A stretch of DNA of 25,482 nucleotides from Candidatus Abyssobacteria bacterium SURF_5 (GTDB lineage Bacteria > Abyssobacteria > SURF-5): positions 1 to 25,482 of the forward strand of contig QZKU01000087.1 in NCBI GenBank assembly GCA_003598085.1, read 5' to 3'. Shown here piece by piece: positions 10,045 to 21,491 of the stretch; positions within the stretch are counted from its first letter, which is position 1, and each line of letters starts with the position of its first letter. The translations under genes and the position numbers were made by a program. The notes under the pieces are model-generated. The model made no database searches and was not told the origin of the DNA. It worked only from the letters and a program-made list of their open reading frames with translations.

Positions 10045-10971
10045 ATGGGACGAATCTTTGATGATATCACTGAGACCGTCGGAAACACCCCCTTGGTGCG
10101 GATCAACCGATTGTCACGAGGTATCGATGCGACCATTGCGGCGAAGCTGGAATCATTCAATCCATTAAGTAGCGTGAAAGATCGAATCGGCGTCGCAATG
10201 ATCGATGCGGCAGAATCGCAGGGGTTGATCGATAAGGATACTGTCATTGTGGAACCGACGAGCGGCAACACGGGCATAGCTTTGGCTTTTGTTGCCGCCG
10301 CCCGCGGCTACCGGCTGATATTGACAATGCCCGAGACGATGAGCGTGGAGCGACGCACCTTGCTGAAGCTGCTGGGTGCGGAACTCGTGTTGACGCCCGG
10401 TCCCGCCGGCATGCGGGGGGCGGTCGCCGAGGCGGAGCGGATTGTCGCCAAAAACAAGAAGTCATTCATGCCTCAGCAATTCAATAATCCGGCGAATCCG
10501 GAAATACATCGCAAGACCACGGCGGAAGAAATATGGTCGGACACGGACGGCAAAATCGATATTTTTGTAGCCGGTGTCGGTACAGGCGGAACAATAACCG
10601 GAGTGGGTGAAATTCTCAAGAAGCGGAAGGCAAGTATCCGCCGAATTGCGGTTGAACCCGCCGAGTCACCCGTACTATCCGGCGGAAAACCAGGCCCGCA
10701 CAAAATCCAGGGAATCGGTGCCGGGTTCATTCCGAATGTTTTCAATCGTAATGCGGTTGATGAGGTGATCCAGGTGAAGACAGAGGACGCCATTCGCACT
10801 GCTCGTCGTCTGGCGTCTGAGGAAGGTATTCTATGCGGAATCTCTTCGGGCGCCGCCTGTCATGCCGCTCTTGAAGTCGGCCGGCGGCCGGAGAATTCGG
10901 GCAAGCTCATCGTGGTGATCCTGCCGGACACGGGGGAACGATATCTTTCAACCGATCTTGTCGAGCGATAG
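10045..10971 (+). CDS. cysK: Cysteine synthase (O-acetylserine sulfhydrylase, PLP-dependent)
   Basis: 308 residues, full family length. It makes L-cysteine from O-acetylserine and sulfide in the cytoplasm. Lys45 in [11 protein letters not shown] is the PLP Schiff-base lysine; [10 protein letters not shown] (71-80) is the substrate/phosphate loop; [13 protein letters not shown] binds the PLP phosphate; and the C-terminus has the SGAACHAAL segment near the PLP ring nitrogen. The ATG is preceded by a purine-rich GAAGGAAGGGG. It lies 47 bp after the coiled-coil gene. A weak terminator (11001-11021) follows the stop. CysK rather than CysM is favoured by overall motif wording, but O-phosphoserine or cystathionine beta-synthase-type use cannot be ruled out. 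Confidence 0.95.
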
Positions 10972-11905: not shown

Positions 11906-12093
11906 GCACATAGGGTCCTACCTCTTCCATCCGCCGGGGAACATGGGTACGGCGAGGCTTTTCTGGGCGAGTCCGCCGAAAGAAATGGGACAGCCTGAGC
12001 GGAGTTTTAAGCGGGTTCTTTTCGCATCTCGGTTTAGGTGAGCGGGATGGAACTGTGACGGGTGACCTGAAACAAAAAGGGGAAGGAAAAGAA
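11906..12093 (+). other. Long 5' leader, possible structured RNA
   Basis: About 188 nt with no gene. It contains several complementary GC-rich blocks: CGCCG/CGGCG near 11932-11964 and TCCGC/GCGGA near 11970-12005. I compared it by eye with common riboswitch cores (GEMM, cobalamin, SAM, TPP, glycine) and found no match. It may simply be an untranslated leader. Confidence 0.25.
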
Positions 12094-14154
12094 ATGGATA
12101 ATCATGCAGGCTTTGGTTTTTGCAGGCGTACTTTGATCTTTATGTGCTTGCTGCTGTTCTTGTTCACTTCTGTTCCTGCGGCGCTGGCGCAAAGTTCCTC
12201 GGCCGGCGAGCCACTGTTCAAGGAAAAATGCGGTATCTGCCATTCGCTGGATCGCGCTTTGAATCGGTTTGATCCGACTGAGAGTTGGGAGAAAGTAGTT
12301 TCGAGGCAAAGGGCAAAAGCTCCGTTCTGGGTCTCGGCCGAAGAGGGTCGCGCGATTACCGGCTATCTTGATACGAGAGGGAAAATAGTTTCCTCCGGCC
12401 GGCCCGACCTGTTGCCGGAACAGATGCAGACCCGTCAAAGCGTAATTGTTGTGGAACCGGCCTCTCGCATGAACCCGAATGTCTCGGAGGCGCGTTTCAA
12501 TACGGCCAAGGCTGCATATGCCGCCAACGAGCTTTTCCTCAGCGGTGTCCCCTTCTTTGAAAAGATAACACAATTAGGTCTTCCAACCGATAAGGATCTT
12601 GTCACCATTACTTCAGAGGATTCCTTCTGGTATTCGCGGTACGGAATGAGCGCATTGCAGTTCGAATCGGGAATGGGGCTGCATTTGCTTCAGTCCCGGC
12701 GTACCATCCTTCAATCAGAAGAAGAAGGTATCTCGCCGAAGGAATTCTATGACGGTTTCCTTGCTCGAGTCCAGGAGAGGACGGGGCTGACTTCTCCACC
12801 TGCCGGGGTATATCCGGTGTTCGCTGAGTTCGCTTCGGGCGATCCCGAATTGACGCAACTGCCGAATTTCCAGGATTACAGCACGTTGCGCTGGAATCCG
12901 CAGAAATTCGACAAGACGATCTCGCTGGGCGCACTCGGGCAGGCGCTCTACAATCAGACTTTGTGGGCGGAATATTTCTTTGGGTCGAAGCACGGGGAGA
13001 ACCTGCTTGGCAACGATGCGACCGAGGGATATCTTGGAGCGCTTTTGGTTGCGGAGGCCGTCAACAAGATGCATTTTCTGATTTCGGAAGCCGCTTTTGA
13101 CGGCAAGAAGCTCGGACAGGTGAACCCGTTCTCCTATGAAGCGAAACTGCTGTATTATCCTCGTCAGATAGCCGTGGATCTTTCCTATCCGGACGACGCT
13201 CCTCCGATTCCTGAGTCGTATGCGGTACTTGATCCCACGAGCACGTTGTTTGATCAGGCCTCGCTGCTGCTGGGGGCGAGCGAGTTTTATTATTTCTCGG
13301 ACCCGAAGGTGGAGGATAACTGGGACGCGGTTTTCGGTTCGCCGGCCGAGGGAGCTCTTTTCCCGCCGGAGCCCCACAACAGCGCGAAGGGACTGTCGGG
13401 CGTGGTGCTGAAGAACATCGTTGCGATGCACTATAATCCAGTGCGCCAAACGTTCGTGTCCACTTGGGCAAATGGCGAGCGAGGCAAGACGATTGCCGCC
13501 GCTGATGCGGGTCTGGTTCTGGTTGCATTGAAAAACACCTACACCGCGTTCCATGATGATGAAGAGATACGGCAGGGTGCGCGGAAAATGCTGGAACGCC
13601 AGGCGGAGTTCCTGTTCGATTATCTGCAGCTCCCGGACGGTGGCTTCGCCAATGAGTACAATCTGGAAACGAGCGCTCATTCGGAGGATCCGCGAAAGCT
13701 TGTTACTCAGGCGCTGGCGATCCGAGGGTTATTGGCCGCGTATGCGGTGACTGAAGATCAGAAATACCAGGAGTCGGCGATGAGCGCGCTGAACTTCATG
13801 AATGAGAAACTGTGGTCGCCGGATGCCAAAATATATCGCTCGGAAGAAGAAGCCGCTCTCTCGCACTTGTCGCCGATGGATATGGGTGCAACCTTGGGCG
13901 CTCTGCGTGAGGTCGTCTTGGCAAGAAAAGACGAGGATGTCCTCAGGAAATTCATGATCGTCTTTATCAGCGTGTTGCAGCAAAACGGTATGCAGTTGGC
14001 GGAACTGACGCCGACCGGCGAGAAATTCGGCAGCGTCGCCGATGTGATGACGCCTGATTCGGACAGTAACGGTGTGCGGAAACCCCAGTTTGCCGGAGGG
14101 AGATTCGGAGTTGCTCCCGTTCTCGCCGGTCAAATAGCCGTACCGAGCCCGTGA
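12094..14154 (+). CDS. Secreted monoheme c protein with C-terminal alpha/alpha-toroid-like domain
   Basis: 686 residues. ATG at 12094 follows AAGGAAAAG; an in-frame ATG at 12055 is less likely. A signal peptide ends at ALAQ (about 33). One heme c site, CGICH (46-50), heads a small cytochrome-like domain continuing WEKVVSRQRAKAP...VSAEEGRAITGYL. In relatives I know, the 'RM' at the position of Arg71-Gln72 gives the axial Met; here there is none. The remaining about 580 residues are mainly helical. From about 455 to 640 they resemble the YyaL/AGE six-hairpin toroid (DAGLVLVALKNTY; LPDGGFANEY; LVTQALAIRGLLAAY; MDMGATLGALREV). No catalytic residues can be assigned. It sits after the TlpA-like gene and 35 bp before the DUF1858 gene. 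Domain combination is clear, function unknown. Confidence 0.8.
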   Translation: MDNHAGFGFCRRTLIFMCLLLFLFTSVPAALAQSSSAGEPLFKEKCGICHSLDRALNRFDPTESWEKVVSRQRAKAPFWVSAEEGRAITGYLDTRGKIVSSGRPDLLPEQMQTRQSVIVVEPASRMNPNVSEARFNTAKAAYAANELFLSGVPFFEKITQLGLPTDKDLVTITSEDSFWYSRYGMSALQFESGMGLHLLQSRRTILQSEEEGISPKEFYDGFLARVQERTGLTSPPAGVYPVFAEFASGDPELTQLPNFQDYSTLRWNPQKFDKTISLGALGQALYNQTLWAEYFFGSKHGENLLGNDATEGYLGALLVAEAVNKMHFLISEAAFDGKKLGQVNPFSYEAKLLYYPRQIAVDLSYPDDAPPIPESYAVLDPTSTLFDQASLLLGASEFYYFSDPKVEDNWDAVFGSPAEGALFPPEPHNSAKGLSGVVLKNIVAMHYNPVRQTFVSTWANGERGKTIAAADAGLVLVALKNTYTAFHDDEEIRQGARKMLERQAEFLFDYLQLPDGGFANEYNLETSAHSEDPRKLVTQALAIRGLLAAYAVTEDQKYQESAMSALNFMNEKLWSPDAKIYRSEEEAALSHLSPMDMGATLGALREVVLARKDEDVLRKFMIVFISVLQQNGMQLAELTPTGEKFGSVADVMTPDSDSNGVRKPQFAGGRFGVAPVLAGQIAVPSP

Positions 14155-14189
14155 AGATAGAATAAAAGGTGGAGAGGGGGAGAGAATAC

Positions 14190-14399
14190 ATGATATCCGC
14201 TCCACAGATCACGAAGAACATGAAAATAGAAGAGGTTGTGAAACGATATCCGAAAACGATATCCGTTTTTGAGCGGTTCGGTTTAAGATGTACCAGTTGC
14301 AGCGTGTCTGCGTTTGAATACATTGAAGAAGGCGCGCGCTCGCACGGCATCGATGTTGATATCTTGCTCGATGAGTTGAACCGCGTCGCGCACGAGTAA
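14190..14399 (+). CDS. DUF1858 small redox-disulfide protein
   Basis: 69 residues from an ATG at 14190 preceded by GGAGAGGGGGAGAG. The sequence MKIEEVVKRYPKTISVFERFG is the DUF1858/ScdA-N-like start, with CTSC (the CxxC of the hybrid-cluster-associated disulfide family) near residues 34-37, then a helix with EYIEEGARSHGID. Members occur beside or fused to iron-sulfur and nitric oxide repair proteins; the CxxC may be redox active or bind a metal. Cytoplasmic. It is 35 bp after the heme gene and about 20 bp before the SAM hydrolase, so probably in the same operon. Confidence 0.88.
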   Translation: MISAPQITKNMKIEEVVKRYPKTISVFERFGLRCTSCSVSAFEYIEEGARSHGIDVDILLDELNRVAHE

Positions 14400-14418: not shown

Positions 14419-15354
14419 ATGAGCGAAAACATGAATCCTGGACGAGGAGGACATTTGCAGCGCAAGTGTTCCTCCTCGAGTTCTTTTTACAGATCGGAAC
14501 GGCCGGGCGGTGTCATTACTCTTCTTACCGATTTTGGACTGGCGGACGCTTATGTTGGGGTCATGAAAGGGGTGATCGCGGGCATAAATCGGGAGGCGTC
14601 GGTGATTGATCTGTGCCACGAAGTGGCGCCTCAGAATGTGCATCAAGCCGCTTTTCTGCTCGCCTCTTCATACGTTTATTTTCCGGGGGGCGCCATTCAT
14701 CTGGCGGTCGTCGATCCTACCGTGGGCGGCAAACGCCGCGCTATCTGCGTTGCGGCCGGTGATTTCTTCTTTGTTGGTCCCGATAACGGGATACTCTCGA
14801 TTGCGTGTTCTCGCGCGGGAATTAAAGAAATCCGGTCCCTCGACAACGAGGCGTATTTCCTGAAGGACAGGAGCAAGACGTTTCATGGGAGGGACATTTT
14901 TGCGCCGGTTGCGGCGCATCTTTCGCGCGGGGTTCCATTGGCGGAGCTGGGGCGGAAGCTGCGTTCAATGAAACATGTTACGCTGCCCGAGCCGGCGATT
15001 GAGCCGCGACGCGGAATCAGGGGGCGAATCGTATATCGGGACAGGTTCGGCAATCTGATATCAAATATAGATCGCGGATCAGTGGCGGCGGCATTCGCCG
15101 GTATTGACGAGGGACGGCTGGTCATTAGAGTGGGAGAGGCTTGCATCAAAGGATTAGGTGAGAGCTATTCGGCAGTGGCGCCCGGGCTGGCGGTGGCGTT
15201 TTTCGGCAGCTATAATTTCCTGGAAGTTGGAATTCGAGACGGCAACGCTGCGGAGATATTGAAGGCGGGTGAAGGAGCCGAGGTCAGAGTAGAAGCCACC
15301 GGCGATTCGCGAGAAGAACGAATCGGGAAGAGAGGTTCACATGGACGTTCTTGA
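14419..15354 (+). CDS. SAM hydrolase (DUF62, SAM hydroxide adenosyltransferase)
   Basis: 311 residues as given. The fold matches the chlorinase/fluorinase superfamily: VITLLTDFGLADAYVGVMKG, VIDLCHEVAPQNVHQAAFLL, AIHLAVVDPTVGG, FFVGPDNGIL, FHGRDIFAPVAAHL and YRDRFGNLISNI. The Asp99, Arg106 and His156 positions fit the Asp-Arg-His set known for the archaeal DUF62 enzymes, which hydrolyse SAM to adenosine and L-methionine; halogenase activity is unlikely but not excluded. No ribosome site precedes the ATG at 14419. GGAGG at 14446-14450 favours a TTG at 14455, which would drop a serine-rich tail. The stop overlaps the next gene by 14 bp, implying coupled translation. Confidence 0.9.
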   Translation: MSENMNPGRGGHLQRKCSSSSSFYRSERPGGVITLLTDFGLADAYVGVMKGVIAGINREASVIDLCHEVAPQNVHQAAFLLASSYVYFPGGAIHLAVVDPTVGGKRRAICVAAGDFFFVGPDNGILSIACSRAGIKEIRSLDNEAYFLKDRSKTFHGRDIFAPVAAHLSRGVPLAELGRKLRSMKHVTLPEPAIEPRRGIRGRIVYRDRFGNLISNIDRGSVAAAFAGIDEGRLVIRVGEACIKGLGESYSAVAPGLAVAFFGSYNFLEVGIRDGNAAEILKAGEGAEVRVEATGDSREERIGKRGSHGRS

Positions 15355-15793
15355 AGGCGACCAGGTCGCCCGTCAGCTCAAAAACCTGATCAGTGAGAAA
15401 ATCCAGGTTCATTCGGAAAGTGTCGACCTGACAGTGAAGTCTCTTTATCGGGTCGCGACCACCGGCAGCATTGATTTTGGCGGGACAGAATATGTGCCGG
15501 GTGAGAGGGTGGCGCTGATGCCGAAGAAGCTGCGCCCGGAGGACAAGTACGGCTGGTGGTTGCTGGCGGCCGGTGATTTTCTTGTGGAGTACGGCGAAGA
15601 ATTGGTGCTGCCTCCGCATCACCTCGCAATTATTCAGCCGCACGAGCGCCTGATCGAATGCGGGGTCACCCACAACACTCTATTGGTCACGGATCCCGGG
15701 CAGAAGCTCTCCACCCTCATCCAGGTCTGTCAGGCCGATGTCAGGATCAAGGAAAACGCGCGGATATCGAAGCTCATCATCCTGCGTCACTAA
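15341..15793 (+). CDS. dUTPase/dCTP deaminase-like protein, degenerate active site
   Basis: 150 residues. The ATG is preceded by AGAGAGG and overlaps the SAM hydrolase stop. The layout follows the trimeric dUTPase/Dcd fold: SVDLTVKSLYRV aligns with the Dcd 'VDVRLG' strand, then YVPGERVALMP, EELVLPPHHLAII and GVTHNTLLVTDPGQKLSTLIQV, like Dcd's VHVTA...DPGWSG. The central RSS(x)4G catalytic motif of Dcd and dUTPase is replaced by PHERLIECG, so normal nucleotide hydrolysis is doubtful. It may bind a nucleotide or SAM-derived product without the usual chemistry. The assignment rests on motif order, so the fold call is moderate. Confidence 0.65.
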   Translation: MDVLEGDQVARQLKNLISEKIQVHSESVDLTVKSLYRVATTGSIDFGGTEYVPGERVALMPKKLRPEDKYGWWLLAAGDFLVEYGEELVLPPHHLAIIQPHERLIECGVTHNTLLVTDPGQKLSTLIQVCQADVRIKENARISKLIILRH

Positions 15794-15832: not shown

Positions 15833-16381
15833 TCAGTCGGCAATATATCCGGCCGAAGCATGCTTCGGCCGGATGTGAAGTTCCACCCTGCGGTTTTGCC
15901 GCCTGCCTTCTGCAGTATTATTGCGTGTCAACGGGCGTGACTCCCCATATCCAACGACCTGGATAGAGTATGGATCAAGTCCGTGACTTACCAGGAAATC
16001 AGCAACAAGACGCGACCTTCTTTCGGACAGCCATTGGTTGTAGCCTTCCTCGCCCTCGCTGTCGGTATGTCCTTCGACAACCACGAGATAGTCGGGGAAT
16101 GCTTTGAGGACCTCCACCACGTCTACAAGCATTCGCTCAGCGCCAACCCGAAGCGAATATTCATCGACATCAAACAGGGCCACATTCGAAAATCTGACCA
16201 CAAGAGAATCATTCCCGGTCCGTTCAGCTTGTGCGACGGCGTTCAACTCGGCATCCAATCGGTAAATCGGATCGGCGGCAGCATCAATTGTTTTCGGTTT
16301 TCGGACAAGAAGACTCGCGCATGCGGAAAAAAGGAAACCCGCTAAAACCAAGCTGAGAAAAAGTGGAGTCAATCTGCCCAT
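15833..16381 (-). CDS. OmpA-domain lipoprotein (peptidoglycan-associated)
   Basis: 182 residues from an ATG at 16381 with AGGAGG five bases ahead. The signal peptide ends in FSAC, so Cys21 is a likely lipidation site (the -3 Phe is slightly unusual). Residues about 55-170 are an OmpA C-like domain: ALFDVDEYSL, VVVEGHTDSEGEEGYNQWLS, SERRSRLVADFL, VVGYGESRP and GRRQNRRVELHI, with the usual Asp/Arg pair for meso-DAP binding. The protein would tether the outer membrane to peptidoglycan. After the conserved end it carries an extra about 12 residues encoded largely by a perfect palindrome (15847-15874). It lies 53 bp after the histidine kinase gene and is probably co-transcribed. Confidence 0.92.
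   Translation of the reverse strand: MGRLTPLFLSLVLAGFLFSACASLLVRKPKTIDAAADPIYRLDAELNAVAQAERTGNDSLVVRFSNVALFDVDEYSLRVGAERMLVDVVEVLKAFPDYLVVVEGHTDSEGEEGYNQWLSERRSRLVADFLVSHGLDPYSIQVVGYGESRPLTRNNTAEGRRQNRRVELHIRPKHASAGYIAD
15847..15874. repeat. Perfect 28-bp palindrome in the 3' end of the OmpA-type gene
   Basis: The 14-bp arms are exact reverse complements centred on GCATGC, with no loop. It sits in the coding end of the OmpA-like gene and 53 bp past the stop of the convergent dUTPase-like gene. No T-run follows on either strand, so it is not a standard intrinsic terminator. Confidence 0.8.
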
Positions 16382-16434
16382 TGCTGCCTCCTGCCGTAAA
16401 GCTGCCAGATTCGAATCGGGCGCCATAGGTGCAG

Positions 16435-19215
16435 CTACGCATCAAGGACTTTGCGAACTTTCAAGAGCAGTTCCTCCAGGTGAAACGGTTTTTGGAGCAA
16501 GCCCTTGACGCCGTCGCGCATGATCTCGCGGGTCTCCCCATTTCGGCCATACCCGGTAGAAAGGAGGGCTTTGACGCCGGGGTTGATCTCTTTCAGTCTC
16601 TGAAACGTCTCGCGTCCTCCCATTTTCGGCATGACCATATCGATGATCACGAGGCCGATGCTTCCATCATGCTCTCTGAACATCTCCACGGCTTCGACGC
16701 CGTCCTGTGCCAGAAGGACTTTATATCCGTAGGATTCGAGAACATCTTTTGCGAGCGAGCGTACGACTTCCTCGTCGTCGACAACGAGGATCAGTTCTTT
16801 TCCGCCACGGACCTCCTGAGGAGCGCTCGCGGTGGATGTCAATTCTTTTCCGCTAGCGGGCAAGTGTATCTCGAAGCACGACCCCTTGCCGAGCTTGCTG
16901 CGCACGCGGACATGTCCGCCATGATTTTTGATCACCCCATAGACCATAGAGAGGCCGAGCCCGGTTCCTTTCCCTTTTTCCTTCGTGGTAAAGAAGGGTT
17001 CAAAGATTCTCTCGATGGTTGCCGCGTCCATTCCGCATCCGCTATCTGACACGGATAAAACGACCGAGGGGATCGACTTTTTCGCGGGACGTTTGGCCGT
17101 ATGTTCCGGCGCCATCAGGTCTCGTTTTGTCTTGATAGCGAGTGTTCCACCGCCGGGCATTGCATCACGGGCGTTCACGCACAAATTCACCAGAACTTGT
17201 TGTATTTGCCCGACGTCAGCTTCGACGGTGGGGATCTCTTCATCGAGATGGATCTTGATCTGGATGAGTTTATCGAAGGTTCTGCCAATGATCTCCAGCG
17301 TCTCGTTCACGATGTCATTGATCGATACGACTTTCGGTTCGTATTTACCGCCTCGAGCGAAGGCCAGCAGTTGTGCAGTAAGCTCCGCCGCACGGCTCGC
17401 ACTTTTCTCGATGGTGTCGGCATAGGGATACACTTCATGCGCCGAGCCGATCCTGCTTTTCAGCAATGAAGCATATCCGAGAATTCCGCCAAGGAGATTG
17501 TTGAAATCGTGCGCTATCCCACCCGCCAGGGTGCCGATACTCTCCATTTTTTGCGCCTGCAAGAATTGCTGCTGAAGCTGTTTTTTTTCGGTGATGTCGC
17601 GCGTCACGCCCATCAATCCCGCGAGAGCCCCTTGCGAATTATGGAGAAAACTGATTTTTGTTTCAGCCCAAATCGAAGAGCCATCCTTCCGATAGAGCTC
17701 CGCATCGACAGTCCGAATCCGTGTTTTCTTTTGATCAAGCACGTCGGATTCGGCCTCGTTGGGCAGCATCTCTTTGATTGCTTTAAGGGGGCACAGCGGC
17801 AGGATTTTCTCTACTATCTGTCCGATTACCTCTTGTGGGTCAAGGCCCAGGACGGGTTTGACGGACGGACTGATGTAGGTGAACCGAAAATCGAGATCGG
17901 CTATCCAAATGATATCCAGTACGTTTTCCGCCAGTAATCGGTAATTGCTCTCGCTTTCCTCACGCGCCTTCTCGGCCTGGTTACGCTGCTCGATTTCATG
18001 GATGAGTTTCAGGTTCGAAATTCGCAGTTCCTCAGCAGAGCGGGCGATGACTTCGAGTTCGGCCTTTCGCTTCTGATTTCTGTAGAAGATTAACCCTGCA
18101 ACGGCGCCAATCAGCATCAGCAGTGAAGCCACGAGAAAATTATTTCTGGTATTTTTCCTCACTGGAGCGGCTATTTGCTCGTAATCGGTGGTCATGGCGA
18201 GAGACCACGGCTGGTCGTGAAGCCTGATGGGAAGGAAAGCGACGGCTTTTCTCACCTTTTCCGGTTTGCCACCGGCGCCGACAGCATAGTAGGTTCCGAA
18301 ACCTTCTTCTCCGTTAATCATCTTCTGAACGAGATCCTGAAAGTCTTTACCATCAGATTTTTCGAAGTTGCCGGATTCGATGTCAATGATGTTCTTGCCG
18401 ATATGGTCTGTATTCGAATGGGAGATCACAATGCCTTGAGTATCTATGATCCAGGTGGAATCGGCTGCTCCGGTTTGGACGCGGCAGGCGGATTCATTCA
18501 GGCAGGCCAAGGGGATCGAAATGCAAAGTATGCCCAGGAAATTTTTCTCATCAAAAACAGGGTGATAGAGATAGAAGCCGGGTTCTCCGGCAGAGAGTTC
18601 AAGGACCTGACTCACATGAGGTTCCCGCTTGTCCAGCACGTATTGGACCTCCGGCATCTGTGACCAATCTTTTCCGATATCGCTCTTCAGATAGGGCACC
18701 CGATGCAACACCTTTCCTGTCTTATCAAGCCGATAAATCGAGTCGACTCTGCCTCCCACGTGATCCAGTAAAGCCTCGCTGGCAACATAGTCGTAATAGG
18801 CTAGTGGTTTTCCTGACTTGAACTCACCGCTGAAAGGTTTGCGGGCAAGAAGACTCAGATAGTCCTGCATATCGCGAACGAATTGTTCGATACACTGCGC
18901 CTTTTCTCCGGCGATGCCGAACATGTATTGGTTTACTCTTGCTACAGTCTCTCTCTCGAATTTGTAAACGTTTCTCTGTGTCCATAACAGAACACCCGCT
19001 GCAAAGAGTATGCATGCTGAGGCGAGAAACGCCTTTTTCAGGAAACTTAACCAAGCAGGGCGCACCTTCATCCTGTGTAATTCAAGCCGCTTCCACACCT
19101 TTTCCAGGGTTCTGTAACCGCCGCACAATGAAGCCTTTCCCCGGCTAACGAAGGTGCCGAGGAGGCTGTCATTCAATGTGAGCTTGGACAGTGTTTTGGG
19201 AAACAGGAATTTCAT
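16435..19215 (-). CDS. Hybrid sensor histidine kinase (Cache-type sensor, PAS, HisKA, HATPase, receiver)
   Basis: 926 residues. A transmembrane helix near 60-82 and a second near 357-378 flank a periplasmic region of about 275 residues that looks like a double Cache sensor. PAS follows (about 422-550), then HisKA with AGGIAHDFNNLLGGILGY (phospho-His about 568), the ATPase with VNLCVNARDAMP (N box) and GTGLGLSMVYGV (G2 box), and a C-terminal receiver with VVDDEE, phospho-Asp about 857 (VIIDMVMPKMGG) and a QKP Lys. All residues needed for phosphotransfer are visible. No partner response regulator or Hpt gene lies here. No strong ribosome site precedes ATG 19215; an ATG at 19071 (after ACACAGG) is a serious alternative and keeps both helices. 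Confidence 0.95.
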   Translation of the reverse strand: MKFLFPKTLSKLTLNDSLLGTFVSRGKASLCGGYRTLEKVWKRLELHRMKVRPAWLSFLKKAFLASACILFAAGVLLWTQRNVYKFERETVARVNQYMFGIAGEKAQCIEQFVRDMQDYLSLLARKPFSGEFKSGKPLAYYDYVASEALLDHVGGRVDSIYRLDKTGKVLHRVPYLKSDIGKDWSQMPEVQYVLDKREPHVSQVLELSAGEPGFYLYHPVFDEKNFLGILCISIPLACLNESACRVQTGAADSTWIIDTQGIVISHSNTDHIGKNIIDIESGNFEKSDGKDFQDLVQKMINGEEGFGTYYAVGAGGKPEKVRKAVAFLPIRLHDQPWSLAMTTDYEQIAAPVRKNTRNNFLVASLLMLIGAVAGLIFYRNQKRKAELEVIARSAEELRISNLKLIHEIEQRNQAEKAREESESNYRLLAENVLDIIWIADLDFRFTYISPSVKPVLGLDPQEVIGQIVEKILPLCPLKAIKEMLPNEAESDVLDQKKTRIRTVDAELYRKDGSSIWAETKISFLHNSQGALAGLMGVTRDITEKKQLQQQFLQAQKMESIGTLAGGIAHDFNNLLGGILGYASLLKSRIGSAHEVYPYADTIEKSASRAAELTAQLLAFARGGKYEPKVVSINDIVNETLEIIGRTFDKLIQIKIHLDEEIPTVEADVGQIQQVLVNLCVNARDAMPGGGTLAIKTKRDLMAPEHTAKRPAKKSIPSVVLSVSDSGCGMDAATIERIFEPFFTTKEKGKGTGLGLSMVYGVIKNHGGHVRVRSKLGKGSCFEIHLPASGKELTSTASAPQEVRGGKELILVVDDEEVVRSLAKDVLESYGYKVLLAQDGVEAVEMFREHDGSIGLVIIDMVMPKMGGRETFQRLKEINPGVKALLSTGYGRNGETREIMRDGVKGLLQKPFHLEELLLKVRKVLDA

Positions 19216-20570: not shown

Positions 20571-21368
20571 TTAGAGGCTGATCCCGGAATCGACTTCGAG
20601 GACTTGTCCGTTAACTCCATCGGCCTGCGGGATCGCGAGCGAGAAAATAGCGCCGGCGGCCTCTTCGGGGGTAAGAATCCGGCCCCCGCGCATGACCATA
20701 AACTGCTCACCCATGGAGCGCATCTGCTCGGGAATACCGATATTGGCGCCAAGGATCTGGTCGCCCTTGGTAGATTGTGTGAGACGCGTTTCGACGAATC
20801 CATAAGCGACGGCATTGCAATTGACTTTAATGCGAAGCCATTCTTTGGCCATTACCCGCATGAGACCGACAACGCCGCTTTTTGCGGCTCCGTAATTGCT
20901 CTGCCCGGAATTGCCACGAGTTCCCGCCTCAGAGGAGACGAAGATGACGCGGCGATACTTACCGTCCTGGCTCAATTCTTTCAAGTGAGGATAGGCCAAT
21001 TTACACAGCATCCATGGAGCTTCCATGTGGATCCGCTCCATCAGGCGGAAATCTTCAAGTTCCATCTTCTGTATGACTTTGTCGTTGCAGAAGCCGGCGC
21101 AAGGCACGAGAATATCCAGCCCCTTGAAGTTATCCAGCGCGGCTTTGATCAGAGCTTCATTGGTTGATTGTTCCATCACGTTTCCGGCAACGGCTACCGC
21201 TTTGCCACCGGCCTTCTTAATGGAATCCACAACTTCACCGGCCGGTCCCTTATCTAAATCGGATACGACTACACTTGCTCCCTGTTCGCCAAACATTTTC
21301 GCAGCCGCTGCGCCGATTCCACGACCGGCGCCCGTTACTACGGCCACTTTTCCATCGAGCAGACCCAT
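20571..21368 (-). CDS. SDR family NAD(P)-dependent oxidoreductase
   Basis: 265 residues from an ATG at 21368 with AAGGAGG eight bases upstream. Classical short-chain dehydrogenase: TGAGRGIG (12-19) binds the cofactor; Ser145/146, Tyr159 (SNYGAAKSG) and Lys163 form the catalytic set; and the C-terminus reads NGQVLEVDSG. The usual NNAG segment is PCAG (89-92), so the Asn that stabilises the central sheet is replaced by Cys. Resemblance is to FabG-like 3-ketoacyl or hydroxyacyl-CoA reductases, but the substrate is not decidable. Asp37 after the dinucleotide fold (VVVSDLD) suggests NAD(H) rather than NADP(H). First gene of a two-gene operon with the zinc ribbon. Confidence 0.93.
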   Translation of the reverse strand: MGLLDGKVAVVTGAGRGIGAAAAKMFGEQGASVVVSDLDKGPAGEVVDSIKKAGGKAVAVAGNVMEQSTNEALIKAALDNFKGLDILVPCAGFCNDKVIQKMELEDFRLMERIHMEAPWMLCKLAYPHLKELSQDGKYRRVIFVSSEAGTRGNSGQSNYGAAKSGVVGLMRVMAKEWLRIKVNCNAVAYGFVETRLTQSTKGDQILGANIGIPEQMRSMGEQFMVMRGGRILTPEEAAGAIFSLAIPQADGVNGQVLEVDSGISL

Positions 21369-21491
21369 GGTAACAGCCTCCTTTTTACTTGATACCCAGC
21401 GAACTTCGCTCATAGATTTGATATGTTTGGGACAGCCCATCGCGGGAAAATCGGGGCGCGCGCCGGGCCGGCTCCTGTCGAAGCAGATTTT

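Follow-up and report, generated by a model that had tools for sequence, protein, structure and literature searches.

Within the 25,482-nucleotide stretch of Candidatus Abyssobacteria bacterium SURF_5 that we analysed (hereafter, the window), an S-adenosylmethionine (SAM) hydrolase gene is followed by a frame whose product resembles dUTPases and dCTP deaminases (Dcd). Does the second protein still act as an enzyme of that superfamily, and does it act together with the first? The two frames, at 14419–15354 and 15341–15793 on the forward strand, overlap by 14 bp (15341–15354), as the first-pass annotation of this sequence had stated, and a Shine–Dalgarno-like stretch (AGAGAGG) lies just upstream of the ATG of the second gene (hereafter, the partner).

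The SAM hydrolase and the fold of its partner

Judged by its domains and catalytic residues, the product of 14419–15354 (311 aa) is an ordinary DUF62 (R)-SAM hydrolase. Both DUF62 domains are present (Pfam SAM_HAT_N, 5.5e-57; SAM_HAT_C, 2.1e-18), and the nearest solved relatives are 2zbu (PDB match at 1.7e-49) and PH0463/MJ1651; NCBIfam model NF058624 gives 203 bits, below its cut-off of 350. The Asp-Arg-His set read in the first pass was found in the aligned motifs, where Asp99, Arg106/Arg107 and His156 sit at the expected positions. The likeness to the described enzymes (NF058624, 2zbu, StDUF62) thus covers both domains and the catalytic set, whereas a poorly conserved N-terminal extension and a pseudo-dUTPase as neighbour set the window protein apart. 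A second SAM hydrolase, 40% identical to the window copy, is encoded on another contig of the same genome (L057; G000:C23:11457–11900).

The partner (150 aa) matches the Pfam DCD family PF22769 with 34.8 bits (gathering cut-off 27), the archaeal dUTPase model NF002598 with 57.6 bits, under the curated cut-off of 130, and PDB entry 9w59 at 1.2e-9. An AlphaFold2 model built with 21 family members reached a mean pLDDT of 96.0, and Foldseek and VIA-align grouped it with dUTPases and Dcds across its whole length; the best structural match was the Sulfolobus dUTPase 2zdc (Z 16.4, 132 residues, 2.0 Å rmsd), and the Thermococcus dUTPase 8y1w scored Z 15.2. The dUTPase/Dcd fold proposed from the sequence is thus borne out, and the nearest kin of the partner is the archaeal-type dUTPase (9w59, NF002598). 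With these enzymes (NF002598/PRK02253; 9w59; 2zdc; 8y1w) the partner has the fold in common over residues 2–150, as well as the segments QxxxxxxxLT, DF..xE, GW and KxNAR, but it falls below the NF002598 cut-off and lacks the RSS motif, the WDxGY.G hairpin and the glycine-rich C-terminal tail. To the dCTP deaminases and bifunctional Dcd-Dut enzymes (PF22769; 1ogh, 2qlp, 4xjc) it is related by a score just over the Pfam cut-off and by Z values of 13–15; here too it differs, with HER in place of RSS and a Dcd active-site region that is not conserved.

Loss of catalytic elements in a conserved subfamily

The absence of the RSS motif, already remarked in the first reading, was confirmed in an alignment of 32 relatives, active and RSS-less, in which H-E-R stands at this position of the partner. 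The catalytic Asp hairpin (WDxGY.G) and the closing glycine-rich tail at the C-terminus are also missing, and the protein ends at the last strand. The active enzymes in the alignment have R-S/T-S/T, W-D-x-G-[YF]-x-G and a tail of at least 14 residues with Y.G.Y; the exceptions are a DPANN sequence (L009), with V for W, 9w59, whose sequence was truncated where the match ended, and a partly degenerate Diapherotrites sequence (L010). In all 16 members of the RSS-less group (the partner and 15 others) other residues stand in place of the RSS triplet, the Trp and the catalytic Asp. Two hairpin columns are deleted in the group, only one in the subset formed by G109, G245 and G372, and at most five residues follow the last strand, compared with 14–26 in the fully intact enzymes. 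The segments that lost constraint in the group are the pocket-forming and phosphate-binding ones of the superfamily. Because the RSS motif, the Asp hairpin and the tail are gone, as sequence and model both show, we infer that neither hydrolysis of dUTP nor deamination of dCTP by the known route should be open to the partner. The Diapherotrites homologue (L010, 5950–6450), which groups with the active enzymes, lacks the catalytic Asp as well as one Ser, possibly an independent loss.

In a phylogenetic tree, the 16 RSS-less proteins fall on one side of a single branch (support 99/97), and this branch is kept (92/91) when residues 99–132 and the tail are removed from the alignment; the grouping is therefore not produced by the loss itself. 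Seventeen residues are invariant in the 13 core members: Q22, L30, T31, D45, F46, G48, E50, Y70, G71, W72, W73, L75, E86, K137, N139, A140 and R141. All lie outside the lost motifs and include DFxGxE, YGWW and KxNAR; H111 is kept in most group members. The group is spread patchily over many bacterial phyla, the lineages compared being mostly represented by metagenome-type or sparse assemblies. A further member, from G425 (L067), shows the same pattern of loss. The G245, G372 and G109 proteins (L027, L028 and L029), which make up a second RSS-less subset, belong to one family and have a motif of their own, QPH....NG.WHP....DW; no SAM hydrolase was detected in these three genomes. Degeneracy of the partner is not a local oddity: the whole subfamily shares it as an old, conserved feature, and the pseudo-dUTPase subfamily, across several bacterial phyla, is real.

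Among the window, G001 and G002, which represent three genera of one family, the partner has a dN of 0.18–0.23 with dS at or near saturation; the SAM hydrolase changes faster in the same comparison (dN 0.35–0.40). Low dN with saturated silent sites means that the partner is maintained, not decaying.

Linkage of the hydrolase and the partner

The hydrolase and the partner close a tightly spaced run on the forward strand. Its first gene (12055–14154) encodes a protein of 699 aa that carries a CxxCH haem motif close to the N-terminus, gives only weak epimerase-like Pfam matches, with no confident family, and is 69–71% identical in G001 and G002. It is followed by a gene for a DUF1858/hybrid-cluster-associated redox disulfide domain protein (14169–14399), which lies 19 bp upstream of the hydrolase and is conserved in G001 and G002. 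This gene and cysK (10045–10971) had been taken as signs of a sulfur/SAM theme; both are indeed present, but DUF362/ferredoxin, redoxin and a c-type-cytochrome-like protein are encoded in the block as well, and this leaves the theme thin. Upstream of the partner, a search for an internal promoter gave a match at chance level only. The partner gene ends a run in which it and the (R)-SAM hydrolase gene point the same way, and the two are therefore probably co-expressed in the window's family, in which their co-transcription is likely. A perfect 28-nt palindrome, ATCCGGCCGAAGCATGCTTCGGCCGGAT (15848–15875), follows the partner's stop codon, inside the annotated 3′ end of the OmpA gene; no second copy of its 22-nt core exists in the genome. 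The pseudo-dUTPase and OmpA genes converge here, and the palindrome is probably a bidirectional terminator between them.

Three genera of the window's family, each represented by one genome (G000, that of the window, G001 and G002), share the gene order redoxin, 700-aa protein, DUF1858, SAM hydrolase, pseudo-dUTPase; linkage of hydrolase and partner was found only in these three genomes, which are those of the family that the analysis covered. The spacing of the two genes varies, from the 14-bp overlap in the window to an overlap of about 4 bp or a gap of 8 bp in G002 and a gap of 66–132 bp in G001. Moreover, the conserved block exceeds the pair, running from a methyltransferase gene through the gene at 20571–21440, and so synteny alone could hold the two together. 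Compared with the syntenic stretch in G001 and G002, the window carries an insertion at 15833–19215, with genes for an OmpA-family protein and a PAS-type sensor histidine kinase/response regulator.

Outside this family, in at least ten other carriers, no SAM hydrolase gene was found beside the partner in the stretches examined (G003, Stahlbacteria, two Aerophobetes, Coatesbacteria, G380, G216, G075, G074, G344, G425 and the G109/G245/G372 group); many of these genomes have a SAM hydrolase on another contig and in some none was detected. At the level of genomes, co-occurrence with a SAM hydrolase is at background (8 of 13 carriers and 176 of 373 other genomes; Fisher p = 0.40). Nor do the partner's neighbours have a theme in common across phyla; they include a PAS kinase, a 2-oxoacid oxidoreductase subunit, a nitroreductase, an O-methyltransferase, a radical SAM protein and an AbiEii-like protein. 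In the collection of papers searched, and for either of the two term pairs tried, no paper mentioned a DUF62 protein or SAM hydrolase together with a dCTP deaminase or dUTPase. Thus, the pairing noted in the first pass recurs in three genera of one family, but in other lineages the genes are unlinked. The repeated linkage in unrelated genomes expected of an obligate pair was not found; that the partner and the SAM hydrolase work as a pair is unproven, and direct cooperation of the two proteins is possible but unsupported.

Possible roles of the pseudo-dUTPase

The reading that we favour, and regard as moderately probable, is that the partner descends from archaeal-type dUTPases as a conserved pseudoenzyme with a non-catalytic binding or scaffold role, and that the SAM hydrolase is not its general companion across bacteria. 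An archaeal-type dUTPase ancestor would have given rise to a protein that keeps the beta-barrel fold and most likely serves as a small binding or scaffold protein, probably trimeric as the fold suggests. Its working surface, judged from where conservation persists, may be formed by DFGGxE, PEDKYGWW and KENARxS rather than by the old active site. The earlier idea that the pocket was reused for adenosine or SAM-derived compounds found no support.

The conserved residues could also serve new catalysis on another substrate. A re-purposed enzyme that hydrolyses or deaminates another, possibly modified or damaged, nucleotide, and so a second house-cleaner next to the (R)-SAM one, would account for the strong conservation of the partner, with D45, E50, K137, N139 and R141 invariant and H111 in most members, and its relatives are house-cleaning enzymes. 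We nevertheless consider it unlikely, given that the pocket and phosphate-binding segments lost constraint, that the closing tail is absent and that the neighbours show no nucleotide-repair theme. A putative house-cleaning context common to both proteins is a reasonable thought, because DUF62 enzymes remove (R,S)-SAM in vitro, their cellular role being debated; disposal of this off-epimer has been proposed as their function (PMC12120602).

Somewhat less likely still, the partner may be dedicated to the SAM hydrolase as its subunit or regulator; the two trimeric folds would then form a 3:3 complex, in which the partner would tune hydrolysis in response to a nucleotide or adenosine. The genes are adjacent and co-directional in three genera and overlap in two, the active sites of DUF62 enzymes are situated where trimer subunits meet and adenosine promotes trimerization of StDUF62 (PMC12120602), and dUTPases are generally trimers, some of which regulate through protein contacts (PMC4914113, PMC5593958). 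Against this stand the carriers in which the partner lies away from any SAM hydrolase, several of them with none detected, the background co-occurrence and the longer syntenic block into which the adjacency falls. A broader version, in which multi-phylum dUTPase-fold pseudoenzymes act as nucleotide sensors or scaffolds and one family recruited them to control its (R)-SAM hydrolase, trimer on trimer, is a long shot. A decaying gene or a functionless chance neighbour would fit the lost motifs, the patchy distribution and the variable neighbours; it is very improbable in view of the 70% identity between genera whose silent sites are saturated, the absence of internal stops from every match found and the occurrence of the same loss in several phyla.

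Viral dUTPase-related proteins that lost catalysis exist, and to our knowledge catalysis-free relatives are known mainly from viruses. The staphylococcal phage Dut proteins are regulators that act through protein contacts (PMC4914113, PMC5593958). These cases illustrate non-catalytic contacts made through a dUTPase fold, and the pseudoenzyme that we propose resembles them by analogy only. Unlike them, the partner is bacterial, with no sequence link shown, and relatives of it were found neither in the viral contigs covered by one scan nor in PHROGs.

The RSS-less group, a conserved cellular one found in several bacterial phyla, would be a clean case of a housekeeping enzyme turned pseudoenzyme, and offers a test bed for the role of the dUTPase fold without catalysis. 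Under standard annotation such proteins may wrongly receive the name dUTPase or dCTP deaminase, and a link to SAM, if real, would bear on the cellular role of DUF62 enzymes (PMC12120602). Some carriers also have an active enzyme. G000, G002 and G003 each encode, elsewhere in the genome, a PF00692 dUTPase of the canonical type, carrying RSG together with DADYRG or DSDYRG; the partner is probably not the cell's own dUTPase. Against this reading, no other dUTPase was detected in G001, although the assembly of that genome is about 92% complete. In G074 and G344, a canonical archaeal-type paralog is present alongside the dead copy, and in Omnitrophota active archaeal-type copies lie within apparent pyrimidine-synthesis gene runs (gene names read by eye).
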